Source: Bacteroides sp. (GTDB lineage Bacteria; Bacteroidota; Bacteroidia; Bacteroidales; Bacteroidaceae). Taken from it: a stretch of 36,830 nucleotides of DNA. The translations under genes and the position numbers were made by a program. Under the pieces are notes generated by a model. It ran no database searches. It had not been told where the DNA came from and saw only the letters and a list, made by a program, of their open reading frames with translations. Positions within the stretch are counted from its first letter, which is position 1, and every line of letters starts with the position of its first letter. The DNA is taken from contig SUXX01000023.1 in the NCBI GenBank assembly GCA_015060735.1, positions 1-36,830 of the forward strand, written 5' to 3'. Shown piece by piece: positions 5,456 to 36,830 of this stretch.

Positions 5456-5472
5456 CAAAAACTTCTGAAACC

Positions 5473-5886: not shown

Positions 5887-5926
5887 AATACACCTTCACG
5901 TTTTCACTTAAACGCCTTCACCTATC

Positions 5927-10285: not shown

Positions 10286-10303
10286 AATTTTCAAATTTGG
10301 GGG

Positions 10304-10311
10304 CAAAAGTA
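10304..10311 (-). promoter_or_regulatory. Predicted -7 box for topA-aroK-argB
   Basis: TACTTTTG on the minus strand is an exact TAnnTTTG match 18 bp before the topA ATG. The -33 region falls inside the terminator hairpin at 10321-10356, so the two signals overlap. Confidence 0.55.
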
Positions 10312-10312
10312 G

Positions 10313-10363
10313 AAAAAAAAGCAGAATCACACCTATATAATAAGGTATGTTTCTGCTTTTTTT
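10313..10363. terminator. Terminator after the TPR/beta-barrel operon
   Basis: Arms 10321-10334 and 10343-10356 pair over 14 positions with one mismatch and one wobble, around an 8-base loop. The minus-strand side runs into eight T residues (10320-10313), and the plus-strand side has seven T residues after 10356, so it may work both ways. It ends the minus-strand operon 14951-15475/12052-14949/10396-12033. Confidence 0.75.
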
Positions 10364-10395
10364 CTTAATTTTCTTTAAATACAGGGGAAGACTTA

Positions 10396-12033: not shown

Positions 12034-12051
12034 TATTCTTTTTTTTAGTGA

Positions 12052-14949: not shown

Positions 14950-14950
14950 C

Positions 14951-15475
14951 CTATTTACTTTTCGTATTGATAAACCTCCTGACCCCTTCCCGAACCGAAT
15001 CCAATCCGAAATCGTCAGGACAAATATTCTCTAAAGGCATCCAGAAAGAATCGGCCACATCATCCATGGCTCGCAAGCCAGATTCATCCTTCACCTTACA
15101 GACAAAGAACTGATCCAACGTATGCACCAAGAAACCTGCATACAGATACGTATTAGGCAAAGAAAACAGATAAGTAGCCTCCATCACTTCCAGCCCGGTT
15201 TCCTCCAGCACCTCACGAGACACACCTTGTTCTCCTGTTTCAAAACGGTCTATAAACCCTCCTGGCAAATCCAGCGTCCCTTTTTGAGGTTCCTTGGCCC
15301 GTCTGCAAACCAACAACTCACCTTCTGCATTCAAAATAAAGGCCACAGTAGCTGCACTGACATTAAAATAGTACACAAAACCACAATCCGGACAGCACTT
15401 GGATTTCTCATTATGAATCTGAAACGCCGAAGAACCACATTGAGGGCAATAGCGGAATTGTTTCAACGGATGCAT
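14951..15475 (-). CDS. Nudix hydrolase with N-terminal zinc ribbon
   Basis: The 174-residue cytoplasmic protein starts with a zinc ribbon (C10-x2-C13 and C28-x2-C31). The Nudix domain follows, with an intact box: G73, E79 and REVLEETGL at 87-95, matching Gx5Ex7REUxEExGU. This resembles the ribbon-plus-Nudix layout of NudC-type NAD pyrophosphatases, but it is shorter and lacks the NudC N-terminal domain, so the substrate cannot be called. It is the first gene of an operon with the TPR and barrel genes, which looks functionally unrelated. Confidence 0.9.
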   Translation of the reverse strand: MHPLKQFRYCPQCGSSAFQIHNEKSKCCPDCGFVYYFNVSAATVAFILNAEGELLVCRRAKEPQKGTLDLPGGFIDRFETGEQGVSREVLEETGLEVMEATYLFSLPNTYLYAGFLVHTLDQFFVCKVKDESGLRAMDDVADSFWMPLENICPDDFGLDSVREGVRRFINTKSK

Positions 15476-15504
15476 GATTATTCTTTCTATATATTAATAA
15501 GGTG

Positions 15505-15512
15505 CAAAGATA
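15505..15512 (-). promoter_or_regulatory. Predicted -7 box for the Nudix/TPR/barrel operon
   Basis: TATCTTTG on the minus strand matches TAnnTTTG, 29 bp before the Nudix ATG. No convincing -33 element is seen. It is divergent from the box at 15577. Confidence 0.45.
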
Positions 15513-15576
15513 GCAATACCATTCGTAACTTCCCGTTAATAAAAGCTAAAGCCTGTATTTCTCAGACAATTCTTTC

Positions 15577-15584
15577 TATTTTTG
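15577..15584 (+). promoter_or_regulatory. Predicted -7 box for the CBS/CorC gene
   Basis: TATTTTTG matches TAnnTTTG, 27 bp before the ATG at 15612. The -33 region is weak. Confidence 0.45.
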
Positions 15585-15611
15585 CCACCATTACATAAAA
15601 AAACACTCTTC

Positions 15612-16901
15612 ATGGAATTAACGATTATCATTGTCCTCATTTTATTGAACGGAATATTTGCTATGTCTGAAATAGCTCTCATCTCTGCTCGGAAAAGCAA
15701 TCTCACCAATGACTCACGCAAAGGGAGCCAATCTGCACGCATTGCCTTGAAACTGGCCAGCGACCCGGACAAGTTCCTCTCAACCGTACAAATCGGCATC
15801 ACTTTGATTGGCATTGTTACCGGTATCTACTCCGGTGATGCTTTGGCCGATGATTTCAGTGTTGTACTGACCGAATGGGGAATCCCTGCGACCATTGCCC
15901 ATCCGGTCGCCCAATCACTTATTGTCATTTTGGTAACTTACTTCAGCATCTTGTTCGGAGAACTTGTACCCAAACGAATAGGCATGACAGCCTCTGCCCG
16001 AGTAGCCAAATGGGTTGCCCGTCCCATGTACGGACTTTCCCTGATTGCTTCTCCATTCGTCTGGTTGCTTTCTCAAAGTACTTCCATCATCTTCAACCTA
16101 TTAAACATCAACACATCCAGCGAAAAAATTACGGAAGAAGAAATCAAATCCATGATTGACGAAGGAGCTGAAAGTGGCGAAGTACAAGAAGTAGAACAAG
16201 AAATAGTAGACCGCGTCTTCTCATTGGGCGACCGCAGTTTAAACACCATCATGACTCATCGCAACGACATCATTGCCCTGGACATAGACATGAGCAATCA
16301 GGACGTTTCACGAATCGTTTGCGAACATTTGTTTCAAGTCTATCCGATTACTCGTAACAAAAGTCTAGACGACATCGTAGGCGTTGTCTATCTGAAAGAC
16401 CTTTTCGGAAAATTATCAACCCCCACTTTCGAATTACGCAATATTTTGCGTCCGGCCCAATATTTCCACGAAAACATGGACGTTTACAAAGCTTTGGAAC
16501 TTATCCGGACAAATCATATCAAATATGGGCTCATTTGTGATGAATTCGGTAGTCTACAAGGAATCATCACCATGAAAGACATCCTGGAAGCTTTGGTCGG
16601 TTCACTCCCAAGCGAAAGTGAAGACCCCGACATCATCGCACGCAAAGATGGTGGTTGGCTTATCGACGGACAATGTTCTTTCTACGATTTCCTGAAACAC
16701 TTTGATTACGAAGAACTATATTCTGAACATAACTACAACACACTCGGAGGTCTCATCCTACATCAATTGGAGCATATTCCCCATGCCGGCGAAACCTTGC
16801 AATGGAATGGATTCCAACTAGAAATCATGGATATGGACGGAGCACGCATCGACAAGGTATTGGCCATCCCACCCACCAAAGAAGATGAATCGAATCCCTA
16901 G
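15612..16901 (+). CDS. DUF21/CBS/CorC-type membrane protein (hemolysin-like, YtfL family)
   Basis: The 429-residue protein starts MELTIIIVLILLNGIFAMSE; I chose this ATG because it begins directly with the first membrane helix. Residues 1-185 form a DUF21 (CNNM) domain with about four membrane segments. Residues about 195-325 carry a CBS pair with VYPITRNKSLDDIVGVVYLK and LICDEFGSLQGIITMKDILE. Residues about 340-429 form a CorC_HlyC transporter-associated domain. Family members are linked to Mg/Co efflux or resistance, and the hemolysin name is historical. It stands alone, with its own predicted promoter. Confidence 0.9.
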   Translation: MELTIIIVLILLNGIFAMSEIALISARKSNLTNDSRKGSQSARIALKLASDPDKFLSTVQIGITLIGIVTGIYSGDALADDFSVVLTEWGIPATIAHPVAQSLIVILVTYFSILFGELVPKRIGMTASARVAKWVARPMYGLSLIASPFVWLLSQSTSIIFNLLNINTSSEKITEEEIKSMIDEGAESGEVQEVEQEIVDRVFSLGDRSLNTIMTHRNDIIALDIDMSNQDVSRIVCEHLFQVYPITRNKSLDDIVGVVYLKDLFGKLSTPTFELRNILRPAQYFHENMDVYKALELIRTNHIKYGLICDEFGSLQGIITMKDILEALVGSLPSESEDPDIIARKDGGWLIDGQCSFYDFLKHFDYEELYSEHNYNTLGGLILHQLEHIPHAGETLQWNGFQLEIMDMDGARIDKVLAIPPTKEDESNP

Positions 16902-23450: not shown

Positions 23451-23481
23451 GTTGCGAATATACAATAAAAGGCTAACTTTG
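23451..23481 (+). promoter_or_regulatory. Predicted promoter of the recombinase gene
   Basis: TAACTTTG at 23474-23481 matches TAnnTTTG. GTTG at 23451-23454 lies 19 bp upstream (with TTTG at 23448-23451 as an alternative -33). This is one of the best -33/-7 pairs in the window. The leader to the ATG is about 90 nt. Confidence 0.65.
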
Positions 23482-23482
23482 T

Positions 23483-23500
23483 GTTACTCGTTTGTTACTC
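23483..23500 (+). repeat. Paired GTTAC repeat, copy 1 (recombinase leader)
   Basis: GTTACTCGTTTGTTACTC contains two GTTACTC units 11 bp apart, immediately downstream of the predicted -7 box. A similar pair in the same orientation follows the gene (24737-24754; 14 of 18 bases identical). It could bind the recombinase or another regulator; this is speculation from position. Confidence 0.45.
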
Positions 23501-23576: not shown

Positions 23577-24719
23577 ATGACCGGAGCTAAAGAACCTATC
23601 AAGATTCGGACAAAAAAATTGGCCAACCAAAATCTGTCTCTTTACCTCGATATTTATTATCAAGGCAAACGGACATACGAATTTTTGAAACTTTACTTAA
23701 TTCCGGAAAAGACAAAGGCCGACCGGCAAAAGAATCAACAAACCATGCAGCTAGCCAACACCATCAAGGCTCAACGAATTGTCGAACTACAAGGTAAAGC
23801 CTATGGTTTAAAAATACCGGTTAAAGCCGAAATTAGTTTCTTCGACTACTATCAAGCCATGTGCGAGAAAAGAGAAGATTCGGCCAGCAAGGGAAACTGG
23901 GAGAATTGGGTTGCCTGCTTGAAACACTTACGAAAATACGAACCCAACTCACGCATCTCTTTCTCACAAATCACTCCCAAATGGATCAACGGATTCAGAG
24001 ACTATCTGGAGCATCGTGCTACTGCTTGGGGATGCGATAGTCGGAATCGTACTAAAAGTACTCCATTGGCTCCCAATTCACGCCACAGCTACTTTAATAA
24101 GCTCAAGGCATGTCTGAAACAGGCTTATGAAGACGGTATCATCGAAACCAACCCCATGCTACGGGTCGACAAGCCCCGTCCGGAGGAAGTCAAACGGATG
24201 TATCTCACCATGGACGAGATTCGGATACTTGCTGAAACAGAATGCGAACACCCCGGTACCAAACGGGCTTTCCTGTTTGCCTGCCTCACCGGATTAAGAC
24301 GTTCCGACATCAGCCGCCTCACCTGGAAGGATGTGCAATCACAAGGAGACTTTACCCGTATTATTTTCAAGCAGAAGAAAACCAGCGGTCAGGAATATCT
24401 CGACATAACCCCGCAAGCAGCCCTATTGATGGGTGAAAAGGGGCGTTTGGAAGAACGCATCTTTCAGGACATGTACACGCCAAGCAATACCAATCAAATC
24501 ATCAAACGCTGGATTGTCAAGGCCGGTATACACAAGAATATCACCTTCCATTGCTCCCGACACACATTCGCAGTAATGATGCTCGACCTCGGTACCGACA
24601 TCTACACGGTAAGTAAACTATTAGGTCATCGCGACCTATCTACAACCCAAATTTACGCCAAGATTTTAGACAAGAACAAGCAGGCTGCGGTAGCTCGCAT
24701 CCCCGAGCTACTGACATAA
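23577..24719 (+). CDS. Tyrosine recombinase (site-specific integrase/invertase)
   Basis: The 380-residue protein has the Bacteroidetes layout: an N-terminal Arm-like domain (1-95), a SAM-like core-binding domain (about 98-205) and a catalytic domain (about 215-380). The visible catalytic set is Arg near 240 (GLRRSDISRLTW), Lys in KQKKTSG near 266, His-x-x-Arg in FHCSRHTFA near 325-328, His in LLGHRDLSTTQIY near 351 and the nucleophile Tyr near 360. It appears intact and has its own promoter. It sits 100 bp outside the left 183-bp inverted repeat, so it is the obvious candidate to invert the SusC/SusD segment, as recombinases do next to SusC/SusD shufflons in other Bacteroides. Confidence 0.93.
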   Translation: MTGAKEPIKIRTKKLANQNLSLYLDIYYQGKRTYEFLKLYLIPEKTKADRQKNQQTMQLANTIKAQRIVELQGKAYGLKIPVKAEISFFDYYQAMCEKREDSASKGNWENWVACLKHLRKYEPNSRISFSQITPKWINGFRDYLEHRATAWGCDSRNRTKSTPLAPNSRHSYFNKLKACLKQAYEDGIIETNPMLRVDKPRPEEVKRMYLTMDEIRILAETECEHPGTKRAFLFACLTGLRRSDISRLTWKDVQSQGDFTRIIFKQKKTSGQEYLDITPQAALLMGEKGRLEERIFQDMYTPSNTNQIIKRWIVKAGIHKNITFHCSRHTFAVMMLDLGTDIYTVSKLLGHRDLSTTQIYAKILDKNKQAAVARIPELLT

Positions 24720-24736
24720 CCAACTTGTTCGGTTCT

Positions 24737-24754
24737 GTTACCTTTTTGTTACCC
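24737..24754 (+). repeat. Paired GTTAC repeat, copy 2 (after the recombinase gene)
   Basis: GTTACCTTTTTGTTACCC repeats the GTTAC-N6-GTTAC layout of 23483-23500, with the same 11-bp period and orientation, 18 bp after the recombinase stop and 65 bp before the left inverted repeat. Confidence 0.45.
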
Positions 24755-24819
24755 GAATCCTTCTTGTATATCTTTCATCTTATTCATTAATGGATATTTA
24801 AGCAAATAATACTTACATC

Positions 24820-25002
24820 CTGCATCGGAAAGTGCTAGTATTGTCTGCATTCTTCCTGATGTGTACGATGGCCTTTGCTCAGCAAGGTACCGTAACCGGG
24901 AAAGTTATCGACGACTTGGGTGAACCAGTCATTGGTGCCAACGTAATCGTAAAGGGTACCACAACAGGTGTCATTACCGACGTTGACGGTAACTTCTCAT
25001 TA
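24820..25002 (+). repeat. Left 183-bp inverted repeat (5' part of susC1)
   Basis: It is identical base for base to the reverse complement of 35717-35899. After one mismatch (25003) the match continues to 25022. It encodes the end of the signal peptide and the first half of the carboxypeptidase-regulatory-like domain, up to DVDGNFSL. Beyond about 25023 the two susC genes diverge by many silent and coding changes. Confidence 0.95.
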
Positions 25003-27738
25003 GCAGTAAAAGATCTCAAGAAGAACATCTTGGTGGTTTCTTTCGTAGGTTATAACACCGTAGAAGAACCATTGCGTGGCCGTGCCAAGGTGGGTATCAA
25101 GCTTGAATCTTCAGTAATTAACTTGGGCGAAGTCGTAGCCATCGGTTATGGTACCCAAACTCGTCGCCAGATTACAGGTTCTGTTGCTAACGTATCTGAA
25201 AAGGACTTCAACACTGGTGTTACTCGTGAAGCAACTGACTTGTTGCAAGGTCGTGTAGCCGGTTTGAACATTACTTCAGGTTCAGGTGACGTTTCTTCAG
25301 CTCCTCAAATCCGCTTGCGTGGTACTTCTACTTTGCAGAACGACCAGGGTCCGATGATCGTAATCGACGGTATCCCGGGTGGTGACATGTCAACAGTAGC
25401 TCCATCGGATATTGAATCTATCTCTGTATTGAAGGATGCTTCTTCTGCAGCTATCTACGGTTCTCGTTCTGCAGGTGGTGTTATCTTGATTACTACCAAG
25501 AGAGGTCAGGGTGGCAAGACTCAAGTAAACTATGATGGTTATGTAGCGATGTCTACATTGGCTAACAAGCCTGACTTGTTGACTGCTGACGAATGGCGTG
25601 ACTATGCAAAGAACAACGGTTATGCAGAAACTATGGGTCAGTACGATATGTACGGTGCTAACACAGACTGGTTCGATGTAATCTCTCGTACAGGTATTTC
25701 TCAAAACCACTCGTTGTCTTTGTCAGGCGGTACTTCAAAGAGTAATTACCGTGCATCTGTAACTTACCAGAAGGGTGAAGGTGTCATCCGCGACAACAGC
25801 CAGGAACGCTTCAACTTCCGTTTCCAATTCCAGCAACGTGCCATCAATGACCGTTTGCGTATTGGTTTGACCGGTGCGGGTACAATGATGAACTATAGCC
25901 CAACTTACGGTTATAACTTCGTATTGGCTTACAACATGTTGCCGGTATTCCCAGTTTACAACTCAGACGGTACATGGCACGAAGAAGTTGGTTACGACCA
26001 AGGTAACCCGCTTCACAACATCGAAGCCAACACTCGTGAAAACAAGGGCGTACGTTTCTATGGTAGCGGTGACTTGCAGTTCACCATCGTGGATGGTTTG
26101 AACATCAAGGCTATGCTTTACAAGAGCCGTAACCAGAACGAATATTCTCAATACTACGATTCTACAACTGACGCCGGTCGCGACGACGGTGGTTATGCTT
26201 ACAGAAGCAGTAACACTCGCGACAAGGAATTGATGGAATGGACTTTGGACTTCGACAAGACTTTCAACGATGTTCATAAGGTGAACGCTTTGTTGGGTTA
26301 CTCTTGGGAAGAAAATACTTATCAATCTATGTCAGCAGCTAACCGTAGCTTTACAACTGACAACTTGGGTGCCAACAACTTGGGTGCTGGTCAGGATGTA
26401 CGTCCAGACGACGTTGCTTCTTCAAAGAACGAATACCGTTTGATCTCTATGTTTGCTCGTGCTAACTATAGCTATGGCGAACGTTACATGGTAACAGCTA
26501 CTGTACGTCGAGACGGTTCTTCTAAGTTCGGTGCTAACCACAAGTGGGGTATTTTCCCGTCAGTATCTGCAGCATGGGGTATCTCTCAGGAAGCTTTCAT
26601 GGAAAACGTTGACTGGGTAAGCGACTTGAAGTTGCGTGCCGGTTGGGGTGTTACAGGTAACCAGGACGGTTTGTCTCCTTACAAGACTCTCGAACTTTAC
26701 GGTGCTTCCAGCAAGTACTATGACAATGGTAAGTGGTTGACAGGTTATAAGATTAACCAGAATGCTAACCCTGACTTGAAGTGGGAAGAAACTTCGATGT
26801 TGAACATCGGTTTGGACTTCCAGTTGTTCAAGGGTCGCTTGGGTGGTACCATCGAATGGTATAGCAAGCAGACTAAGGATATGCTTTACACTTATACAGT
26901 GCCTTCTCCTCCATACTTGTATCGTAGCATGATGGCCAACGTAGGTGACATGAGCAACAAGGGTATTGAAGTATTGTTGAACTTCGATGCTATCAAGACT
27001 AAGGACTTCTCTTGGAACACTAGCTTGAACTTGGCTCACAATAAGAACGAAATCACTAAGCTTTCTAACGACCAATTCTCTACTACTCGCGTTTACGCAG
27101 GTGACGCTTGGATCCGCGGTAGTTCCGGTGGTACAACTCACGTAGTTGAAGAAGGTTACCCTGTAGGTCAGTTCTACGGTTGGTTATGCGAAGGTATCAA
27201 GGACGGTAAGTATATCTTGAAGGATATGAACGGTGACGGTCAGATTTCTGAAGACGACCGTACATACATCGGTTCTGCTCAACCTGACTTGACATTCGGT
27301 TGGAACAACAGCTTCCGTTTCAAGAACATCGACTTCTCATTCTTCTTCCGCGGTAGCATTGGCCAAGACGTAATGAACCACGTAAGAATGGCTTACGCTC
27401 AGCCGGGTTACTTGATTGGTGCCAACGCTTTGGACGATCCTTTGACTTACGAATTGAAGGAAGTTCCTAAGTACTGTTCATACTACATTGAAGATGCTTC
27501 ATTCGTTCGTTTGGACAACGTAACTTTGGGTTATACATTCAATACTAAGGGTATCGACTGGTTGCAGAAGGCACGTGTTTACGTTACAGGTCAGAACTTG
27601 TTCGTGATTACAGGTTATAAGGGTCTTGACCCGGAAACTAACGTAGGACGTAACGACGGTTTGGCTCCGGGCGTTGAAGACCGTGAATTCTATCCAAAAG
27701 CTAGAACATTTACTTTGGGTGTTAACTTGACATTCTAA
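24832..27738 (+). CDS. SusC-like TonB-dependent outer-membrane transporter, silent cassette copy (susC1)
   Basis: SusC proteins are TonB-dependent barrels that import glycans or peptides with a SusD lid. The 968 residues from a GTG at 24832 include the end of a signal peptide (LVLSAFFLMCTMAFA, QQ), a CarbopepD_reg domain (about 20-95), the plug with EVVAIGYGTQTRRQITGS and GPMIVIDGIPGGDMS (about 100-225), and a barrel ending GVNLTF. The frame is open back to 24802, but there is no ATG, no normal signal-peptide start and no TAnnTTTG box; a TAA stands at 24799. It is probably not expressed in this orientation. The GTG could permit weak translation from recombinase read-through. Codon choice is strongly biased (AAC, AAG, GGT), suggesting high expression when on. 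Confidence 0.88.
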   Translation: MLVLSAFFLMCTMAFAQQGTVTGKVIDDLGEPVIGANVIVKGTTTGVITDVDGNFSLAVKDLKKNILVVSFVGYNTVEEPLRGRAKVGIKLESSVINLGEVVAIGYGTQTRRQITGSVANVSEKDFNTGVTREATDLLQGRVAGLNITSGSGDVSSAPQIRLRGTSTLQNDQGPMIVIDGIPGGDMSTVAPSDIESISVLKDASSAAIYGSRSAGGVILITTKRGQGGKTQVNYDGYVAMSTLANKPDLLTADEWRDYAKNNGYAETMGQYDMYGANTDWFDVISRTGISQNHSLSLSGGTSKSNYRASVTYQKGEGVIRDNSQERFNFRFQFQQRAINDRLRIGLTGAGTMMNYSPTYGYNFVLAYNMLPVFPVYNSDGTWHEEVGYDQGNPLHNIEANTRENKGVRFYGSGDLQFTIVDGLNIKAMLYKSRNQNEYSQYYDSTTDAGRDDGGYAYRSSNTRDKELMEWTLDFDKTFNDVHKVNALLGYSWEENTYQSMSAANRSFTTDNLGANNLGAGQDVRPDDVASSKNEYRLISMFARANYSYGERYMVTATVRRDGSSKFGANHKWGIFPSVSAAWGISQEAFMENVDWVSDLKLRAGWGVTGNQDGLSPYKTLELYGASSKYYDNGKWLTGYKINQNANPDLKWEETSMLNIGLDFQLFKGRLGGTIEWYSKQTKDMLYTYTVPSPPYLYRSMMANVGDMSNKGIEVLLNFDAIKTKDFSWNTSLNLAHNKNEITKLSNDQFSTTRVYAGDAWIRGSSGGTTHVVEEGYPVGQFYGWLCEGIKDGKYILKDMNGDGQISEDDRTYIGSAQPDLTFGWNNSFRFKNIDFSFFFRGSIGQDVMNHVRMAYAQPGYLIGANALDDPLTYELKEVPKYCSYYIEDASFVRLDNVTLGYTFNTKGIDWLQKARVYVTGQNLFVITGYKGLDPETNVGRNDGLAPGVEDREFYPKARTFTLGVNLTF

Positions 27739-27757
27739 TCTTAAAAACAGTACAATT

Positions 27758-29299
27758 ATGAAAAAATCAATTATAACAAAATGGTTGTTGGGTGCGGCTA
27801 TCCTTGCTGCTCCTGCATGTACCGATTTGGACGAGAATGTGTACGACTCTATTCCGTCTAGCGAGTTTGGTACAACTCAGGCACAGATCAACTCCATCAT
27901 TGCCCCGATTTACAGTGAATTGAAGGGTGTATGGCAGGGTGACTTCTTCTGTGCTATCGAAGAAGCATCAGATATGGCTATCACTCCGACTCGTATCGGT
28001 GGTGACTGGTGGGACGGTGGTTACCACATGGAAATGAAGCGTCGTAACTGGACTTCTATGAACAGCTTGATCAACAATGGCTGGAACGAATGTATGGACG
28101 GTATCGCTACTTGTAACATGGTATATCACATGGTAGCCCAAAACGAATCTATGGATGAAGCTTTGAAGACTCAGACTTTCGCTGAAATCCGTGGTGTACG
28201 TGCTTACTGGGTATATATGCTGGTAGACAACTGGGGTAATGCTCCTTTGGCAACTGACTTCGGTTCTACAGAATTGCCTACTATGTCAAACCGTTCTGAA
28301 TTGTTCAACTTTGTAGTAACTGAATTGAACGAAATCAAGGATCAACTTCCAACTAATTCGGATGCTACATATGGTAAGTTCACTCAAGGTGCTGCTTACA
28401 CTTTGTTGGCTAAGATGTATTTGAATGCTGAAGAATGGGTAGGTACTCCGATGTACGACAAGGTAGTTCCTGCTTGTGATGCTGTATTGGCTATGGACTA
28501 TGTATTGGAAGGCGAGTGGAAGGTAAACTTCCAAGTGAAGAACGAAGTTTCAGATGAAGCTATCCTTTCTGTACCTTATAGTGCTTCTGCTGGTGGTAAC
28601 AATATCCACAACCGTACTCTCCACTACAAGGACCCTATCGCATTGGGCTTCTCTCGTGGTACTTGGAACGGTATCTCAGCTAACCCTGACTACGTAAAGG
28701 AATTCGATCCGGAAGACCCACGTTTCGAAGGTTCATTCTTGTTGGGTGAAATGATCGACCCATCGACAGGTGAGGTAATCGTAACTGACCACGGTCGTGA
28801 CTTGATCCATACTATCGACTTCAACATGATGTCTACTGACAAGTACGACGGCATTTGGGGTGAAGTACAACAGGAAGAAGGTGCACGTGTTAACAAGTGG
28901 GAATACGAAGCTGGTATGAATAACACTGCCATGGAAAATGACTACCACATCTTCCGTTTGGCTGACGTTTACTTGATGAAGGCTGAAGCTTTGGTACGCC
29001 AAGGTAAGGACAATGCAGAAGCTACTAAGTTGGTGAACGCAATCCGTCAACGTGCTTATCAAAATGCAGACCATAACTATGCAAGCGTAGACTTGGATAA
29101 GATTTATAAGGAACGTCGTTTCGAATTTGCATGGGAAATGTTCAGCCGTCAGGATATGATCCGCTTCGGTAAGTTCAACGAACCGGGTTACTTGTTGCCT
29201 GAAACAACTCCAGATTACAAGAAGTTGTTCCCAATCCCATACAAGGCATGGCAAGCTAACGACAAGTTAGTTCAGAACCCAGGTTATCCTGCATTCTAA
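27758..29299 (+). CDS. SusD/RagB-like surface lipoprotein (susD1)
   Basis: SusD-like proteins cap the SusC barrel outside the cell and bind the substrate. The 513-residue protein has a lipoprotein signal with Cys21 (AAILAAPAC) followed by acidic TDLDEN, which fits Bacteroidetes surface-export signals. The TPR-like SusD core shows EIRGVRAYWVYMLVDNWGNAP, GKFTQGAAYTLLAKMYLNAE and HIFRLADVYLMKAEALVRQG, ending in YKAWQANDKLVQNPGYPAF. It begins 19 bp after susC1 and shares its transcript, so it should be off when susC1 is off. It is about the same length as susD2 but clearly diverged from it. Confidence 0.93.
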   Translation: MKKSIITKWLLGAAILAAPACTDLDENVYDSIPSSEFGTTQAQINSIIAPIYSELKGVWQGDFFCAIEEASDMAITPTRIGGDWWDGGYHMEMKRRNWTSMNSLINNGWNECMDGIATCNMVYHMVAQNESMDEALKTQTFAEIRGVRAYWVYMLVDNWGNAPLATDFGSTELPTMSNRSELFNFVVTELNEIKDQLPTNSDATYGKFTQGAAYTLLAKMYLNAEEWVGTPMYDKVVPACDAVLAMDYVLEGEWKVNFQVKNEVSDEAILSVPYSASAGGNNIHNRTLHYKDPIALGFSRGTWNGISANPDYVKEFDPEDPRFEGSFLLGEMIDPSTGEVIVTDHGRDLIHTIDFNMMSTDKYDGIWGEVQQEEGARVNKWEYEAGMNNTAMENDYHIFRLADVYLMKAEALVRQGKDNAEATKLVNAIRQRAYQNADHNYASVDLDKIYKERRFEFAWEMFSRQDMIRFGKFNEPGYLLPETTPDYKKLFPIPYKAWQANDKLVQNPGYPAF

Positions 29300-29303
29300 T
29301 CTT

Positions 29304-29364
29304 AGAGTTTAAGTCGTTTTAAACCTAATAGAGAAAGGCTACTCCTTCGGGGTAGCCTTTTATT
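29304..29364 (+). repeat. 61-bp inverted repeat copy A, containing the susD1 terminator
   Basis: It is identical to the reverse complement of 31305-31365 over 61 bp. It begins 5 bp after the susD1 stop. It includes a 12-bp hairpin (29334-29345 with 29349-29360, loop TTC, one wobble) followed by a T-rich tail, so it is both the pair's terminator and an inverted repeat. Confidence 0.93.
29334..29364 (+). terminator. Terminator of susC1-susD1
   Basis: AAAGGCTACTCC / GGGGTAGCCTTT around loop TTC, then TATTATTAT. This is a strong intrinsic terminator. Confidence 0.85.
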
Positions 29365-29380
29365 ATTATCTTGTAGCAGC

Positions 29381-29469
29381 CTCCAAACACCAAGGCATTT
29401 AACTCCAAACACCAAGGCATTTAACCCAAAACACCTTGGCATTTTTTTGAAACGCCTTGTTGTTTGGGA
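29381..29469. repeat. Tandem and inverted copies of a CCAAACACCAAGGCATTT unit
   Basis: Two identical 22-bp units lie end to end (29381-29402, 29403-29424). A third, altered unit (ACACCTTGGCATTT) follows at 29431-29444. An inverted relative (GCCTTGTTGTTTGGGA) spans 29454-29469. The inverted copy lets the cluster fold back on itself. Confidence 0.7.
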
Positions 29470-29490
29470 GAAATACCTTAATTAAACGAA

Positions 29491-29583
29491 TCTGCCACAT
29501 CTGCCACAAAAAGAGTTAACAAACTGAGAGCCAAAGAAATGTTGGTGGCAGAAGGCTCCAAAATCTGCCACAATTCTGCCACA
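29491..29583. repeat. TCTGCCACA motif cluster
   Basis: TCTGCCACA occurs tandemly at 29491-29499 and 29500-29508, and again at 29564-29572 and 29575-29583. An inverted TGGCAGA lies at 29546-29552. The same motif forms the arms of the hairpin at 29669-29718. Confidence 0.65.
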
Positions 29584-29668
29584 ACCATACTTCTTGTCTC
29601 ATGGACTTGCGAAGCTAGTCTCATGTACCTATCTGACTACAAGCACATGGCAATGAGACTGCAAGCGT

Positions 29669-29718
29669 ATATCTGTGGCAGAAATACAACGGTGTGACAA
29701 TATTTCTGCCACAGATAT
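29669..29718. repeat. 18-bp perfect inverted repeat built from the TCTGCCACA motif
   Basis: ATATCTGTGGCAGAAATA (29669-29686) is the exact inverse of 29701-29718, with a 14-base loop. There is no T-tract after either arm, so it is not a simple terminator; a protein-binding site or recombination site is possible. Confidence 0.8.
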
Positions 29719-29772
29719 GCATTGATTATCAAGCTATTAAGAATCCGTTGCAGATTTTGCAGAAATTTGAAA

Positions 29773-29856
29773 GTCTTCTAGCATGACGGGGTGTAGTCAT
29801 CTAGCATGACCAAGCCCGGTCTTCTAGCATGACCGACCGTGGTCTTCTAGCATAAC
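29773..29856. repeat. Four 15-bp repeats at exact 23-bp spacing
   Basis: GTCTTCTAGCATGAC or a one-base variant starts at 29773, 29796, 29819 and 29842. The 8-bp spacers differ (GGGGTGTA, CAAGCCCG, CGACCGTG). The constant core with variable spacers looks like an iteron or degenerate tandem array. It lies just beyond the ATPase stop at 29876. Confidence 0.8.
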
Positions 29857-29875
29857 AAGCATTGCAACAATGTAT

Positions 29876-31222
29876 CTATACTAGTCCGCTTAAATCAACT
29901 TTGTAGAAAGTAGGTGTATCATTTTTTCTTTCCAGGAACATAACCATATAAACAGGAGCATACACTAACTTTCCTTCCACCCGGAGATTGTCGTTGTTTA
30001 AGATGACAGCTTCCGGCAAATTGTATTCGCTACAATCCATGATATTTGATAAAGCCCGATGGATTTCGTAATCTTTGCCCGATTTAACTTCAATCGGAAG
30101 GATTTTTCCACCAAGTTCTATGACAAAATCCAATTCACCTCGTTTCTTGTTATTGTAATAATAAGGTTCCACTCCATGTGCCACCAACTCTTGGGCAATT
30201 GCATTTTCGTATATGGAACCATGGTTGATGTCTTTATCTCCCTGTATGATTCGAAGTTGGATACCCTCTGCATATTGGGCAGCCAATAGACCTATGTCGC
30301 TTTGAAAAAGTTTAAACAGATTGCGTGAACGTGCATGCAATAAAGGAGTTTTCGGCTCTTCCACATTGTAGACAGGAAGAGCCACCCCTGCGTTCTTCAG
30401 CCAAAGGAAACTATTCTGATAACGCTCGAATTTAGCGTTCTCGTTCAAGCGTTTCAGAATGAATCGTTTGTTTTTTGCGTCAAGTTCGGGCGGAATCAGG
30501 TTAAAAATTTCTTCTATGTATAGCTTGTTTGCCGGGTCGTATTGGGCGATGTCACGTTTATACAATTGAATAATCTGCTGTTGTATCGCTATTACTTCTT
30601 GCAGATTATTACTCTCCAGATATTTGCTGACAACGGCAGGCATTCCCCCTACAACTAAGTAGAGGCGGAAAAGTTCCATCAGTTTGGAATGTACAAAATC
30701 ATCGACCGGGATTCGTCGCTCCCAGGCATCACGAAGTGATATTACCACATTTTCGTTGACCCCTATACATGTGATGAATTCTTCAAAGTCTAACGGATAC
30801 ATATCCTTCACTCCCATATATCCTACGGGCTCTGAACGCAAGTCTTTCAGCTCTACTCCCAACAGCGAACCGCTCAGGATATATCTATACGAACCTTCGT
30901 CTACCAAGAACTTAATGGCCGTAACTATTTCCGGACATTTTTGTACTTCATCGAAGAATATTAATGTCTCGCCTTTTATGAGTGGAACAGAAGTCATTGC
31001 CGATAGGCGAAACAGTATATCAGAAGCATTCTTTGCTCCTTTAAAGATGCCCGTAGCCTCGGGGTTGTCTACGAAATTTATCTCAATAAAGCTTTTGAAT
31101 GACTTGCCGAACTCGCGAATAGAGAATGTTTTTCCTATCTGTCGAGCACCGGTTACTAAAAGAGCATTGGTTGTTATCTCGTAGAAATTACGTATATAGC
31201 TGTCTATCTTTCTTTTAATCAT
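29876..31222 (-). CDS. AAA ATPase with C-terminal DUF4143/nuclease-like domain
   Basis: The 448-residue protein has Walker A GARQIGKT at 25-32 and Walker B LIFFDEVQKCPEIV near 80-93. A central helical region follows. The C-terminal DUF4143-like domain includes KKRGELDFVIELGGKILPIEVKSG, which shows the Asp...Glu-x-Lys pattern of PD-(D/E)xK-like folds. These ATPases are very common in Bacteroidales, often in accessory regions, and their function is unresolved. I start it at ATG 31220-31222 (MIKRKIDSYIRNF); the open frame reaches a TTG at 31273. It sits between the two SusC/SusD pairs, inside the invertible segment, on the strand of susC2, and its codon use is unlike theirs. It looks like a passenger. 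Confidence 0.88.
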   Translation of the reverse strand: MIKRKIDSYIRNFYEITTNALLVTGARQIGKTFSIREFGKSFKSFIEINFVDNPEATGIFKGAKNASDILFRLSAMTSVPLIKGETLIFFDEVQKCPEIVTAIKFLVDEGSYRYILSGSLLGVELKDLRSEPVGYMGVKDMYPLDFEEFITCIGVNENVVISLRDAWERRIPVDDFVHSKLMELFRLYLVVGGMPAVVSKYLESNNLQEVIAIQQQIIQLYKRDIAQYDPANKLYIEEIFNLIPPELDAKNKRFILKRLNENAKFERYQNSFLWLKNAGVALPVYNVEEPKTPLLHARSRNLFKLFQSDIGLLAAQYAEGIQLRIIQGDKDINHGSIYENAIAQELVAHGVEPYYYNNKKRGELDFVIELGGKILPIEVKSGKDYEIHRALSNIMDCSEYNLPEAVILNNDNLRVEGKLVYAPVYMVMFLERKNDTPTFYKVDLSGLV

Positions 31223-31304
31223 ATTTCTTCCACTTTTCCAAGGAATATCATTGCTTTTTTGCCGTTTTTCCAAGAATAGTATTTTTTCAGAACCTGTTCA
31301 CATG

Positions 31305-31335
31305 AATAAAAGGCTACCCCGAAGGAGTAGCCTTT
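31305..31335 (-). terminator. Terminator of susC2-susD2
   Basis: Same 12-bp hairpin with TTC loop and T-rich tail as after susD1, on the minus strand. Confidence 0.85.
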
Positions 31336-31365
31336 CTCTATTAGGTTTAAAACGACTTAAACTCT
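31305..31365 (-). repeat. 61-bp inverted repeat copy B, containing the susD2 terminator
   Basis: It is the exact inverse of 29304-29364, with the same hairpin and T-tail reading on the minus strand after susD2 (stop at 31369-31371). Confidence 0.93.
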
Positions 31366-31368
31366 TTT

Positions 31369-32934
31369 TTAGTTGAATGATGGGTAACCCGGATTTTGAA
31401 CCAAGTTCGGGTTAGTCTGCCATGCTGTGAATGATACAGGGTACAACTTCAAGTGTTCACCAGTCTTTCTTGGACAGTTGGAAGCTGACCACATACCAGT
31501 TTCGAAGCAACCGAAGCGGATGTCATCCTGACGAGACTTCAACTCCCAAGCAAATTCCAAACGACGTTCCAATTGGATTTCGTCCAAACCTACTGTAGCA
31601 TAATTGTGATCAGTGTCGCCGAATGCACGTGAACGAACAGCGTTTACTAATGCAGCAGCTTCTGCACCACTACCACCGCTACGGATGATAGCTTCTGCCT
31701 TCATCAAGTAGATTTCAGCCAAACGGAAGATGTGGAAGTCATGTCCCATCGCACTAGTCATACTAGAAGTGTAAGGCCATTTCAAAGTACGTACACCGTC
31801 ATGCTGGTTTACGTCACCCCAAGGTGTACCGTCGCGTTCTGTACCCGGAAGGATAGTTACATCGATGGTGTGATCCAATACAAAGTTGTGAGCGGTGATG
31901 ATAGGTTCGCCTGTTGCCGGGTCGTAAGAGATGCCGTGCATGAATGACCAGTCGAAACGTGGGTCGTCATCTGAATACAACTTAGCGTAGTCAGGTTGTG
32001 CACACATACCGTTCCAAGCAGAGAAGCTAGCACCAAATACGATATTATCCTTATAGTGCAATGTATTGAAGTGCAACTGGTTAGTATTAGAAGTATCAGC
32101 TTCATCATAAACAGCAGCCAAGATAGCTTCTTGAGAATTTTCATTATCAATTGAGAAGTTGTCCGGCCAATGTGGCTCGAGGATATAACCCATACCCAAT
32201 ACCTTGTCGCAAGCACTGATTACTTGTTGGTAAGCATTGCCATCGCAAGTTACACCCCAAGCTTCAGCGTTCAAATAAAGAACAGCGAGCAAAGAGTAAG
32301 CAGCACCCTGAGTGAACTTACCATAATTACCTTCGCGAGCAGGCAATTTATCAGCGATGTCCTTCACTTCAGACAACAACCAACTGTAAACTTCCTGACG
32401 TGGCTTGTTAGTAGGCAATTCCTTGTCGCTATAGTCAGTTACCAAAGGTACATTTCCCCAATAATCCATCATCTTGTAAATCCAGAATGCACGTACACCA
32501 CGGATTTCGGCTAACTTCATAGCCTTATCGGCTTCACTCAACAATTCTGAAGCTTCAATTACCTGATAAGTAGCATTACATTTACCAATGTTAGAAGAAG
32601 CAGTTGACCATGCACCACGGATACAAGAAGTCTGTGCTGTATAGTCGTGCATATACATTTCACGATACTGACCACCGTCGTACCAGTCACCACCCTTACG
32701 AGTCGGCTTCATAGACATGGAACCACCCATGTCGTCCAATGCTGTATAATTAGCATTGAAATAATTCTTCAAGGTGTTGTATACCGTACCCAATAGGGCA
32801 TTGATTTCGATTTCGGTATTACCGAAGCTCTGTGCCGGAAGCTTGTCATAAATATCTTCATCCAAGTTGGTACAAGCCGGAGTAAAGAGTAACGAAGCAC
32901 CAAGCAAAAAGGCTATAAATGATTTCTTTTTCAT
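31369..32934 (-). CDS. SusD/RagB-like surface lipoprotein (susD2), active-orientation copy
   Basis: The 521-residue protein has a lipoprotein signal with Cys21 (ASLLFTPAC) then acidic TNLDED, and the SusD helical core: EIRGVRAFWIYKMMDYWGNVP, GKFTQGAAYSLLAVLYLNAE, HIFRLAEIYLMKAEAIIRSG. It ends FTAWQTNPNLVQNPGYPSFN. It is the lid partner of susC2, 19 bp downstream of it. It shares the framework of susD1 but differs through the substrate-binding middle part (about residues 200-400), so the two pairs probably bind different ligands. Confidence 0.93.
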   Translation of the reverse strand: MKKKSFIAFLLGASLLFTPACTNLDEDIYDKLPAQSFGNTEIEINALLGTVYNTLKNYFNANYTALDDMGGSMSMKPTRKGGDWYDGGQYREMYMHDYTAQTSCIRGAWSTASSNIGKCNATYQVIEASELLSEADKAMKLAEIRGVRAFWIYKMMDYWGNVPLVTDYSDKELPTNKPRQEVYSWLLSEVKDIADKLPAREGNYGKFTQGAAYSLLAVLYLNAEAWGVTCDGNAYQQVISACDKVLGMGYILEPHWPDNFSIDNENSQEAILAAVYDEADTSNTNQLHFNTLHYKDNIVFGASFSAWNGMCAQPDYAKLYSDDDPRFDWSFMHGISYDPATGEPIITAHNFVLDHTIDVTILPGTERDGTPWGDVNQHDGVRTLKWPYTSSMTSAMGHDFHIFRLAEIYLMKAEAIIRSGGSGAEAAALVNAVRSRAFGDTDHNYATVGLDEIQLERRLEFAWELKSRQDDIRFGCFETGMWSASNCPRKTGEHLKLYPVSFTAWQTNPNLVQNPGYPSFN

Positions 32935-32953
32935 AATGCAATCGATTTTAAGA

Positions 32954-35929
32954 TTAGAATGTTAAGTTAACACCGAAGGTGAACGAACGTGCCTTAGGCA
33001 TGTAGTTACGTGGTTCGATACCTGGGTCCAAACCTGCGTTGCTGTCGCTGGCTTCACCGCGGAATATTTCCACTTCAGGGTCAAGACCCTTATAGCCTGT
33101 AATCACGAACAAGTTCTGAGCAGCTACGTAAACGCGAGCCTTGGTCAACCAACCGATGTTCTTGGTGTTGAATGTATAACCGAGAGACATGTTATCCAAA
33201 CGAGCGAATGAAGCGTCTTCTACATAGTAAGAACATACACGTGAAGATTCAGACATCTTCAGCAACATGTCGTTCTTCATAGCATTGGTACCGCTGATGT
33301 AAGTGTTGTTACCGTAAGCAGCAACCGGGTTGTTCAATACCTTGTTACCGATAGTACCACGGATGAAGAAGCTGGCATCCCAATTCTTCCAAGAGAAGGT
33401 GTTGTTCCAACCGAATGTCAAGTCAGGTTGAGCATCACCGCAGTATGTACGGTCGTCGTCTGTAATCTGACCATCACCATTAACATCTTCGATGATGTAC
33501 TTACCGTTAGCATCGATACCATTACACTTCAACATGAAGAACTGACCTACCGGACAACCTTCTTCTACTACGTGAGAAGTAACGCCTGATGCACCACGGA
33601 TCCATGGGTCACCTACGTAAACACGGTCGGTAGAATACAATTCGTTAGACAACTTGGTGATTTCATTCTTGTTGTGAGCCAAGTTCAAAGAAGTAGTCCA
33701 ACGGAAGTTCTTTGTACGGATAGCATCGAAGTTCAAAGCCAATTCAATACCCTTGTTGCTCATGTCACCTACGTTGGCAGCGATAGTACCATATACGTAT
33801 GTCGGAGTCGGTACAGAGTAGTTGTAAAGCATATCCTTAGTCTGCTTGCTATACCATTCGACGGTACCGTTCAAGCGACCCTTGAACAACTGGAAGTCCA
33901 AACCAATGTTGAACATGGAAGTTTCTTCCCACTTCAAGTTCGGGTTAGCATTCTGAGATATGGCAAATGCTGTCAAGAAAGCACCATTGCTGAAATAAGT
34001 ACCACTAGATTGGTACAATTCCAAAGACTTGTACGGAGTCAAACCGTCCTGGTTACCTGTAACACCCCAACCGGCACGCAACTTCAAGTCGCTTACCCAG
34101 TCTACATTTTCCATGAAGGCTTCCTGAGAGATACCCCAAGCTGCAGATACTGACGGGAAGATACCCCATTTGTGTTCAGCACCGAACTTAGAAGAACCGT
34201 CTCGACGTACAGTAGCTGTCACCATATAGCGTTCACCGTAGCTATAGTTTGCACGAGCAAACATAGAGATGAGCTTGTATGCATTACGTCCGGAAGTAAC
34301 ATTACCAATCTTCAAAGTGTTACCAGTTTGCAAGTTGTCAGCACCCATGGAAGTTACGGCAAAGTTAGTAACTTGTGCATATTGAGAAGCAAATTCATTA
34401 TTTTCCCAAGAATAACCAATCAAACCATTGATCTTGTGCATTTCGTCAGCACCGAATGACTTGTTGTAGTCCAAAGTCCATTCCATCAATTCACGGTTAG
34501 AAGTATTGCTTGAGCGTTGAGCCAAACCATTGTTGCCCAAACCGATAGAAGTGGTTGGGTCATCCCAACGGCTGTAGTCACTTGAAGAGCGGCTCTTGTA
34601 CAAGCTCACCTTAGCTACCAAACCGTCGATGATTTCGAATTGAACATCACCTTGACCATAGAAGTAGTTATTGCTACGACGACGGTAATTCAATTCTTGG
34701 TTCTGAATCGGGTTACCTTGGTCATATTCTGCATTGAAAGCAGTCATCCAAGTTCCATCAGGATTCTTCACCGGAAGAATCGGAGCCATGTTATAAGCCA
34801 AGATATAGTTAGTACCGTTAGGCATGTCCATATCTGTCAAAGAAGCAGAACCGGTCAAGCTGATACGCAAGCGGTCATTGATAGCACGTTGTTGGAATTG
34901 GAAACGGAAGTTGTGACGAGTCATAGAGTTGTCACGAGCGATACCGTTACGATCCAGGAAAGTATAAGAGGCACGATAGTTACTCTTTGAAGAACCACCG
35001 CTCAAAGACAATGAATGGCTCTGAGAGATACCGGTACGCATCATTTCACCGAACCAGTCTGTGTCAGCATTGTATTGGTCGAATACACTTACATCGTTGC
35101 CCAACTGTCTATTAGCATCACGCCATTCTTCAGCATTCAGCATATCAGGTTTGTTAGCAACCACGTCTGCAGTCACATAACCGTTATAGCTAACCTGAGT
35201 CTTAGAGCCAGAACCTCTTTTGGTAGTAATCAAGATAACACCACCGGCAGCACGAGAACCGTAGATAGCTGCAGAAGAAGCATCCTTCAATACAGAAATA
35301 GCTTCGATATCATCCGGAGCAACTGTTGACATATCACCACCCGGAACACCGTCGATAACGATCATCGGACCCTGGTCGTTCTGCAAGGTAGAAGTACCAC
35401 GCAAACGAATCTGAGAACCACGAGTTACGTCACCTGAACCGGAAGTAATGGTCAAACCGGCCACCTTACCTTGCAACAAGTCAGAAGCGTCGCGAGTCAA
35501 ACCTTTGTTGAACTCTTCTTCTGATACGTTAGCAACAGAACCGGTAATCTGACGACGAGTCTGGGTACCGTAACCGATGGCTACGACTTCGCCCAAGTTG
35601 ATAACTGAAGATTCAAGCTTGATGCCTACTTTAGTACGGCCACGCAACGGTTCATCTACCGTATTGTAACCTACGAAAGATACAGTAATCACATCTTTCT
35701 TGAGATCTTTTACTGTTAATGAGAAGTTACCGTCAACGTCGGTAATGACACCTGTTGTGGTACCCTTTACGATTACGTTGGCACCAATGACTGGTTCACC
35801 CAAGTCGTCGATAACTTTCCCGGTTACGGTACCTTGCTGAGCAAAGGCCATCGTACACATCAGGAAGAATGCAGACAATACTAGCACTTTCCGATGCAGA
35901 AAGGAATTAAATAAATCCTTTGTTTTCAT
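32954..35929 (-). CDS. SusC-like TonB-dependent outer-membrane transporter (susC2), active-orientation copy
   Basis: The full-length 991-residue protein starts MKTKDLFNSF, encoded outside the inverted repeat, then LHRKVLVLSAFFLMCTMAFA encoded inside it; the signal peptide is cut before QQ. Domains are CarbopepD_reg (about 32-108), plug (EVVAIGYGTQTRRQITGS, GPMIVIDGVPGGDMS; about 115-240) and a barrel ending GVNLTF. Blocks such as RYMVTATVRRDGSSKFGA and EAFMENVDWVSDLKLRAGWG are nearly identical to susC1, while extracellular-loop regions differ. This copy has the ATG and leader, so it is the one on in this orientation. The substrate is unknown; no glycan-degrading enzymes flank it. Confidence 0.93.
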   Translation of the reverse strand: MKTKDLFNSFLHRKVLVLSAFFLMCTMAFAQQGTVTGKVIDDLGEPVIGANVIVKGTTTGVITDVDGNFSLTVKDLKKDVITVSFVGYNTVDEPLRGRTKVGIKLESSVINLGEVVAIGYGTQTRRQITGSVANVSEEEFNKGLTRDASDLLQGKVAGLTITSGSGDVTRGSQIRLRGTSTLQNDQGPMIVIDGVPGGDMSTVAPDDIEAISVLKDASSAAIYGSRAAGGVILITTKRGSGSKTQVSYNGYVTADVVANKPDMLNAEEWRDANRQLGNDVSVFDQYNADTDWFGEMMRTGISQSHSLSLSGGSSKSNYRASYTFLDRNGIARDNSMTRHNFRFQFQQRAINDRLRISLTGSASLTDMDMPNGTNYILAYNMAPILPVKNPDGTWMTAFNAEYDQGNPIQNQELNYRRRSNNYFYGQGDVQFEIIDGLVAKVSLYKSRSSSDYSRWDDPTTSIGLGNNGLAQRSSNTSNRELMEWTLDYNKSFGADEMHKINGLIGYSWENNEFASQYAQVTNFAVTSMGADNLQTGNTLKIGNVTSGRNAYKLISMFARANYSYGERYMVTATVRRDGSSKFGAEHKWGIFPSVSAAWGISQEAFMENVDWVSDLKLRAGWGVTGNQDGLTPYKSLELYQSSGTYFSNGAFLTAFAISQNANPNLKWEETSMFNIGLDFQLFKGRLNGTVEWYSKQTKDMLYNYSVPTPTYVYGTIAANVGDMSNKGIELALNFDAIRTKNFRWTTSLNLAHNKNEITKLSNELYSTDRVYVGDPWIRGASGVTSHVVEEGCPVGQFFMLKCNGIDANGKYIIEDVNGDGQITDDDRTYCGDAQPDLTFGWNNTFSWKNWDASFFIRGTIGNKVLNNPVAAYGNNTYISGTNAMKNDMLLKMSESSRVCSYYVEDASFARLDNMSLGYTFNTKNIGWLTKARVYVAAQNLFVITGYKGLDPEVEIFRGEASDSNAGLDPGIEPRNYMPKARSFTFGVNLTF
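35717..35899 (-). repeat. Right 183-bp inverted repeat (5' part of susC2)
   Basis: Exact inverse of 24820-25002. Its outer end lies exactly after codon 10 of susC2, and outside it come the ATG and leader. Confidence 0.95.
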
Positions 35930-36219
35930 AATACATAGATTTAAAGGTTGATATTTAAATAAAGTTAGTTTCTCGGGGTCGAAGATATTCTAAATATTCT
36001 AAAAAACCAAAAAAAGTGAAAACAAATTATTGTCTTTTTTTCATCAAAAAAAAAGCGAATCGACTTCAACGTAAAATTTAATGGATAATTATGCTATATA
36101 CCTTTAAATTGGACGTTTGGCCTTTTTTTATCGACAACGGTTGAAAATCAAGGGAAAAAGTGAAGGAAAATCAGCCTAAAAAGGAGAAAAGGAACAACAA
36201 AAGAGTCTAAACACAGACG

Positions 36220-36227
36220 CAAATATA
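36220..36227 (-). promoter_or_regulatory. Candidate -7 box for the expressed susC-susD pair
   Basis: TATATTTG on the minus strand is an exact TAnnTTTG match, 290 bp before the susC2 ATG. No -33 TTTG is seen at the right spacing; the palindrome AATAAGC-GTAG-GCTTATT (36243-36260) occupies that position. Confidence 0.4.
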
Positions 36228-36242
36228 ATTATTTTTCATCTA

Positions 36243-36260
36243 AATAAGCGTAGGCTTATT
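36243..36260. promoter_or_regulatory. Palindrome upstream of the susC promoter candidate
   Basis: AATAAGC (36243-36249) and GCTTATT (36254-36260) form a 7-bp perfect stem with loop GTAG. It has no T-tract. It may be an operator, or a weak 3' structure of the methyltransferase mRNA. Confidence 0.4.
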
Positions 36261-36328
36261 GTATTATAAACAATTTTTAGTTTTCACAAGACAACTCCAA
36301 TAAAAGCCTATTTTAACATTTCAAAGTG

Positions 36329-36830
36329 TTACTTCAGGCAATGTACTAACACCTTCTCACCGCTTGCCAACGTGGTTGCAAACAGATAATCATCACCTCC
36401 TTCTTTCAATTTCAAACGCTTTCGAAGTTCGGCAACGGTAGCCGGGAAGTTACGGACAGTCAGATTAGCCTTTTCCAAGCTTCCCAAAAGGGTCTTCAGT
36501 TCTTTCTTCCCGAATCCGCAGACTGCTTTCACTTTGAAACAACGCCCCGGGAAATCGGGTATGAAGTATTCCGAAGTATAAAGGTGACTGCTTGTGTGAA
36601 GCTTCTGCACAGAGTAAGCTTGTGTCAACGACCGATAAGCACCCGCCTTGAGGATGGAAGGATGAGGCTCGTACAACCAAGCTCCAACCTCTGCGGCCAA
36701 AGGACAATCGGCTTGCCGTTCTTGTTCTTGGGTAAATACATCGTGACGGCTCTCGCCAGAAGACAACAACTGGACGCAATGGATGGGGATATCCAATGAG
36801 GAGCCTTCTTTTTGCAATACCAAAAGTAAC
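36329..36830 (-). CDS. Probable THUMP-like-domain methyltransferase, C-terminal part
   Basis: About 167 codons are visible, and the frame is open to the window edge, so the 5' part is missing. The stretch LYEPHPSILKAGAYRSLTQA, followed by LHTSSHLYTSEYFIPDFPGRCFKV (given in part) and NLTVRNFPATVAELRKRLKLKEGGDDYLFATT, fits the THUMP-like C-terminal domain of Bacteroidetes class I SAM-dependent methyltransferases. The SAM-binding part would be outside the window. An internal TTG at 36823 is not a credible start. Naming rests on recall of the family. Confidence 0.65.
   Translation of the reverse strand, partial: LLLVLQKEGSSLDIPIHCVQLLSSGESRHDVFTQEQERQADCPLAAEVGAWLYEPHPSILKAGAYRSLTQAYSVQKLHTSSHLYTSEYFIPDFPGRCFKVKAVCGFGKKELKTLLGSLEKANLTVRNFPATVAELRKRLKLKEGGDDYLFATTLASGEKVLVHCLK

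Follow-up and report, generated by a model that had tools for sequence, protein, structure and literature searches.

A SusC/SusD locus in Bacteroides sp. as a candidate two-state inversion switch with attachment sites of the mnmE integrase type

In Bacteroides fragilis, inversion at repeats lying over the start of susC moves one or another SusC/SusD pair into a single expression site (according to the excerpts available of PMC5729914, PMC4747536 and PMC11852207); Tsr0667 is named, in the accessible part of PMC4747536, as the recombinase behind these inversions, with three clusters and nine other regions, so that the statement of an earlier first-pass annotation of the DNA studied here, that recombinase-driven inversion of SusC/SusD pairs occurs in Bacteroides, is borne out. 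The 'region EE' shufflon of the same species holds multiple pairs downstream of an invertible promoter, and whole-shufflon replacement by chromosomal transfer has been reported (both from excerpts of PMC5729914). The 3′ end of trmE/mnmE is described in parts of PMC8409611 and PMC6531882 as the attachment site of SGI1-type islands, and in the Hin-type flagellar switch, as presented in an excerpt of PMC8987985, inversion picks one of two surface proteins by means of an enzyme closely related to those of phages. The present analysis concerns a stretch of 36,830 bp from Bacteroides sp. (contig SUXX01000023.1 of assembly GCA_015060735.1), here called the window, which is a whole contig (G000:C43 in our own numbering of genomes, G, contigs, C, and loci, L) of a genome of 2.45 Mb in 96 contigs, 81% complete, and which carries a tyrosine recombinase gene beside two SusC/SusD pairs. 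Judging from its sequence, an integrase of the mnmE type and a pair of inverted attachment (att) sites have probably become a two-state SusC/SusD inversion switch at this locus.

Like the B. fragilis clusters, the window has repeats over the susC 5′ ends, a single copy of ATG and leader and a linked, intact recombinase; unlike them (at least three pairs are described for 638R and HMW615), it has two pairs only, no repeats were found around its promoter, the recombinase is adjacent, and the repeat edges carry an att core of the mnmE type. Hin is a serine recombinase acting at hix sites, whereas the enzyme of the window is a tyrosine integrase whose sites are made up of arms and a core, the latter falling inside coding sequence. 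The integrase of SGI1 is a tyrosine recombinase, and SGI1-type elements integrate and excise, whereas the window has inverted cores, situated in susC, and no remaining element body, the likeness being drawn by attachment site alone. SusC/SusD inversion is already known; the origin from an mnmE integrase and the site anatomy were not found described, since in the open-licence literature no paper was found on mnmE-attaching integrases in Bacteroides and, among the matches listed, none links SusC inversion to mnmE sites. If correct, the proposed origin would trace, base by base, how a mobile-element integrase can become a phase-variation invertase in which the ancestral att parts can still be made out; it predicts the place of crossover (TGCATCGGAAAG) and why the reaction can go in both directions, and it suggests that att cores of housekeeping genes be sought in phase-variable loci of Bacteroidales. 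SusC/SusD being both nutrient ports and surface proteins, a swap would alter import as well as surface display.

Layout of the segment and its inverted repeats

A segment of 11,080 bp (24820-35899) is bounded by an exact 183-bp inverted repeat; to its left stands the tyrosine recombinase, to its right a fixed block with promoter-like sequence, ATG and leader. The features are the following.

23577..24719, + strand: recombinase, 380 aa, with Arm, SAM-like and catalytic domains
24820..25002, + strand: left arm of the 183-bp repeat, exact inverted match, running on to 25022 with one mismatch
24820..27738, + strand: susC1, without ATG, putatively silent copy in the present orientation
27758..29299, + strand: susD1, from open reading frame (ORF) and domain match
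29304..29364, + strand: left arm of an inner 61-bp repeat, exact match, with a terminator-like hairpin (judged by eye)
29876..31273, − strand: AAA_14/DUF4143 ATPase-like gene between both pairs (cargo), from domain search; unmatched in contig C71 of the relative G032
31305..31365, − strand: right arm of the inner 61-bp repeat, exact match, terminator region
31369..32934, − strand: susD2, from ORF and domain match
32954..35929, − strand: susC2, complete, fused to the fixed start in the present orientation
35717..35899, − strand: right arm of the 183-bp repeat, exact inverted match
35900..35929, − strand: fixed ATG and leader codons
35980..36010, − strand: promoter-like −33 TTG / −7 TATCTTCG before susC2

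The first-pass annotation had reported perfect 183-bp inverted repeats over both susC 5′ ends, and the match is indeed exact at 24820-25002 / 35717-35899, with 19 further identical bases past one mismatch; in 30 first-order Markov simulations of the 13.8-kb stretch the longest exact inverted match was at most 20 (observed, 183). Apart from the two arms and a 74-bp match of 77% on contig C23, the repeat has no strong copies in that genome, which is 81% complete. The pairs susC1-susD1 (+) and susC2-susD2 (−) converge from susC starts at either outer edge, so that the mirror orientation described earlier stands and the head-to-head arrangement does not. As had also been noted, ATG and leader are found on one side only: susC2-susD2 (35929-31369, −) begins with both, and susC1 (to 27738, +) has an open frame whose preceding stop is at 24799, with no ATG ahead of the repeat. 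Inversion carried out in silico fuses susC1 in frame to the fixed ATG, giving 982 aa, and both repeat arms have the same frame, as a clean fusion requires. The arrangement supports susC2-susD2 as the pair that would be on in this assembly, with the qualification that across a 183-bp repeat in draft genomes the assembled orientation may be arbitrary.

Two labels of the first-pass annotation are less apt: 'shufflon' implies many segments, whereas two pairs and a two-state inversion are found here, and 'locked off', as applied to the susC1 pair, is unproven. A GTG at 24832 might conceivably serve as a start for susC1 (GTA stands at that place in G032), the recombinase gene is transcribed in the direction of susC1, and on the recombinase side a promoter-like match at 24746 has five of six fixed positions, equal to that before susC2 (35980-36010); given this equality, the off copy may be transcribed as well. 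No inverted repeats of at least 20 nt were found around 35930-36330, and an invertible promoter was thus not found there. The inner 61-bp repeat was considered as a second inversion site, which could flip the cargo alone; it holds the terminator-like hairpin and was treated as a cassette border. Short tandem repeats lie beside the cargo gene, at 29381-29424 (22 bp, two copies) and at 29773-29856 (units of ~23 bp with TCTAGCATGAC).

The recombinase frame (23577-24719) is open over its 380 aa, in agreement with the earlier description of an intact gene; it has the domains Arm-DNA-bind_5, Phage_int_SAM_5 and Phage_integrase, and its H-x-x-R, G-H and Y motifs align with those of the PDB chain IntI4, the first arginine and the lysine having been judged by eye.

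Attachment cores, arm repeats and the mnmE-linked integrases

The 3′ end of mnmE reads TTYTGCATCGGNAARTRA or near variants of it, and closely similar cores are found at both ends of the segment, together with repeated arm motifs on the recombinase side.

23482..23498, + strand: P′-type arm pair TGTTAC-N5-TGTTAC, 11-bp spacing, upstream of the recombinase, just past a promoter-like TAACTTTG (23474-23481)
24736..24752, + strand: P-type arm pair TGTTAC-N5-TGTTAC, 85 bp before the TGCATCGG of the core, scoring 12/12
24815..24833, + strand: recombinase-side att core, ACAT then (TC)CTGCATCGGAAAGT, 15/16 against the mnmE 3′ end, straddling the outer edge of the repeat
35886..35901, − strand: promoter-side att core TTCTGCATCGGAAAGT in the susC leader, 16/16 against the mnmE 3′ end

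The 16-mer core overhangs the repeat edge by two bases, and in G032, a relative of the same genus, both arms carry one identical single-base change of the core. A search of the window's genome with the core pattern gives one exact match, the promoter-side arm, and four with one mismatch, the other arm included; the reversed control gives one match. In the window the P′ pair is set apart from the core by the recombinase gene; the promoter-side core has, in the arm scan, no arm pair outside it and is thus attB-like. G032 also has a P-type pair at −85 with ACAT, scoring 12/12, and a P′-like pair of 11/12, to be compared with random 250-mers, which score at least 9 in ~8% and 11 or 12 in ~0.1% of cases. 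An arm-like pair of 10/12 at 35714, inside susC2, was taken as chance, four matches of at least 10 being present in the window, two of which are the real pairs.

These positions bear on the possibility that homologous recombination or gene conversion of the RecA type at long repeats flips the segment, the recombinase being an uninvolved, immobilised integrase. The length of the repeat, far beyond what a site-specific core needs, and its homogenisation within each genome would suit such a process; against it, the outer edge of the repeat falls within a base or two of the att core of an integrase family in two species, the P arms and ACAT are at the usual distance for that family, and the recombinase gene stays open, with dN/dS 0.07 relative to G032 (dS near saturation). 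This explanation is considered unlikely.

From the family in question 18 homologues without SusC association (46-64% identity) were examined, of which six came from the genus search, seven from among 14 outside-genus hits of the family search and five from the order search; 14 of them lie directly downstream of mnmE, ~180-275 bp away. SusC beside the homologues, initially expected, is absent from twelve stretches around or near them (L039-L045, L103-L106, L008), and among 29 loci of the genus (L009-L037, flank up to ~1.5 kb) SusC is found beside the recombinase in that of G032 only. The core was searched for, at one mismatch or less, in 12 genomes, six of which have an mnmE-linked recombinase; in G228, G144 and G006 a second core on the same strand of the same contig lies 55.8, 44.1 and 52.4 kb from mnmE, respectively, on the recombinase side, as attL and attR would (G144 has one further copy 238 kb away). 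Before each of the three distal cores stand ACAT and a direct-repeat pair of 11-bp spacing, at −105, −83 and −83, with 12, 9 and 10 of 12 positions agreeing with TGTTAC. Att cores and integrase alone delimit the stretches G228:C5:132352-188178, G144:C1:553368-597498 and G006:C87:8889-61281, which are candidates for integrative elements, 44-56 kb long and inserted at the mnmE 3′ end.

A joint pattern built on the window and the three distal sites finds those four only among 399 genomes of the family (reversed control, 0); recovery of the four is by construction, and the information is carried by the rarity elsewhere and by the matches in viral DNA. The latter comprise 18 viral contigs, half of which (9/18) have a relative of the recombinase (47-63%) ~180-265 bp past the core and, in all nine, a second arm pair between core and gene, 11/12 against TGTTRC (null, ~0.15%); L155, L161 and L165 are near-copies, so that the nine are not all independent. 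In G228 and G144, too, the space from core to integrase holds a TGTTRC pair of 12/12. No recombinase match was obtained in the remaining nine viral pieces, and none of the 18 has an mnmE or SusC match in the viral DNA examined. As read from these sequences, the predicted attP of the mnmE-linked integrase family is P arms - ACAT - core - P′ arms - integrase.

The recombinases of the window and G032 form a pair (99/100) in a 44-row tree, among mnmE-linked and viral integrases and outside a group of 22 rows (99/98); nearest to the window's by path are those of G032, G228 and the viral L150. The tree does not resolve the order within the mnmE group, and some of its long branches, several in number, carry a flag. 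It does not include L045 (from G019, a recombinase with two stops), L040 (a partial copy of L010) or L155, L158 and L160 (fewer than 340 residues). It might be argued that the enzyme is an ordinary SusC/SusD invertase of the Tsr0667 type and that its likeness to mnmE att sites is coincidental or general to the enzyme family: such enzymes do invert SusC/SusD clusters (accessible part of PMC4747536), and the comparison made here is by description only. Coincidence is hard to reconcile with a 16/16 core, P arms, ACAT and the position in the tree taken together, and we regard this alternative as improbable, somewhat more so than a RecA-type process. It is possible that Tsr0667 itself shares an origin of the mnmE type.

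The proposed switch and the points against it

In the proposed two-state switch, the recombinase would join the arm-bearing, attP-like core next to its own gene with the arm-less, attB-like core in the susC leader; since the cores face each other, the 11,080-bp segment would be flipped and not lost, and the fixed promoter, ATG and signal-peptide start would be followed either by susC2-susD2 (the present state) or by susC1-susD1. An integrating element yields attL and attR products that differ from their substrates, and hence an excision factor is usual. Here, arms and leader lie outside the flipped DNA and the repeats are identical, so that product sites would equal substrate sites and the reaction may well be reversible; sites being recreated by each inversion, a separate excision factor should be unnecessary. 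Enzyme and sites would descend from integrases by which phages and other elements enter the chromosome at the mnmE 3′ end, and the order in the window, P′ arms (23482) - recombinase - P arms (24736) - ACAT - core (24820), looks as if an element had lost the part from integrase to far end. The P′ pair, just past the promoter-like −7 element of the recombinase, may serve autorepression. Repeats, cores, arm motifs, kinship and open frames were observed directly; binding, strand exchange, reversibility and expression of the kind just described are inferred. That the first-pass annotation saw a switch between two SusC/SusD pairs is supported by the in-frame fusion, by a susC1 dN/dS of 0.13 and by the att features, from which switching would follow. 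The more specific history, namely an integrase stripped to P′-int-P-core and now acting as a reversible invertase without excisionase, into which cassettes have been exchanged between species, is held with less assurance, at somewhat better than even chances.

Several observations weigh against an mnmE-integrase origin or against inversion itself. No inverted junction was seen, a single orientation being represented. The locus is not an insertion at mnmE with direct att repeats, its cores being inverted and in susC; no core occurs in the window upstream of the P′ pair at up to five mismatches, and a fully kept reduced element would show one. Neither the genome of the window (81% complete) nor G032 (72% complete) yielded an mnmE gene, and hence a native attB. 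The homologues of G007, G076 and G602 are not beside mnmE, and the contig of G013 ends 208 bp upstream, which leaves too little sequence for a call; the mnmE count covers seven of the 14 family hits, and genus hits of 34-43% identity were checked for SusC only. G003, G014 and G298 (contigs of 68, 19 and 52 kb) lack a further core on these contigs, one mismatch being allowed. Arm motifs vary: the distal pairs of G144 and G006 score 9 and 10 of 12 against TGTTAC, one branch (L041, L042, L044 and L106) has a TTGTCCCC arm pair in place of the P′ motif, and no pair was seen in L043. It was the window that first suggested the arm motif, and L103 had already been inspected when the core pattern was settled. 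Finally, a site-specific reaction needs a short core, and the identity over 183 bp therefore needs another cause, which could be gene conversion or selection for one shared N-terminus.

The relative G032, cassette evolution and related loci

Three contigs of G032 converge at its own repeat: C132 with the recombinase side, C98 with the start side and C71 with a susC1-like body. C132 and C98 have an identical 141-bp end, within which C71 starts (103-bp overlap); these ends were considered as evidence of mixed orientation, for which the inverted repeat alone accounts, so that the repeat is all they show. G032 (72% complete) yielded no other susC body of close kinship. The repeat arms are identical within each genome and ~83% alike between the two, and thus evolve in concert, and a stretch of 282 bp (36040-35760) running from the fixed block into the repeat is 89% identical in G032.

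The susC1 protein is 94.7% identical to the G032 copy, with dN/dS 0.13 and dS 0.26: the silent susC1 is under purifying selection relative to G032. The flanking genes have a dS of 1.3 (SufE) and 1.9 (M28 peptidase), and the recombinase of 2.5; the susC1 dS being far below these values, we infer that SusC/SusD cassettes have moved between species into a switch which is itself inherited vertically. Compared with G032 in blocks of 60 columns, identity is 68-88% at 24901-25200 and then mostly 88-100% (one block, 82.5%), the susC part being covered, and similarity stops within the 61-bp inner repeat (29360). Beyond this repeat the genes differ, a DUF4143 ATPase being found in the window and S24 peptidase-like and BT4734-like genes in G032. 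In L067 (G032:C71), the susD1-like gene at 2900-4440 is split in two frames, by a frameshift or an assembly error.

The same comparison bears on a static inverted duplication, in which the starts would be kept identical by conversion and susC1 would be a reservoir of sequence. Consistent with it, the alternative orientation is not among the observations and the susC1 cassette has apparently been exchanged between species (dS 0.26 against 1.3-2.5 in flanking genes). A reservoir accounts poorly for an ATG-less susC1 that is still open and constrained, for a frame common to both arms that permits clean fusion and for a site architecture present in both species; this is the least probable of the alternatives considered, and very improbable.

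Two further loci were recorded. L066 (G001:C4), at 8767-15192, holds the pair that, of the others found in the genus, is nearest to susC2-susD2 (74% / 62%), directly downstream of mnmE, where relatives of the recombinase have their attachment site; it has no adjoining recombinase gene and no arm pair evident by eye. L094 (G000:C22:45001-65000), in the window's own genome, has at 4854-15801 another recombinase (28-29% identical) between two divergent SusC/SusD pairs, and a 50-bp exact inverted repeat (9289-9338 / 11476-11525) links a start-less susC to a complete one; as this repeat is placed, promoter, leader and recombinase would lie within the flipped segment.

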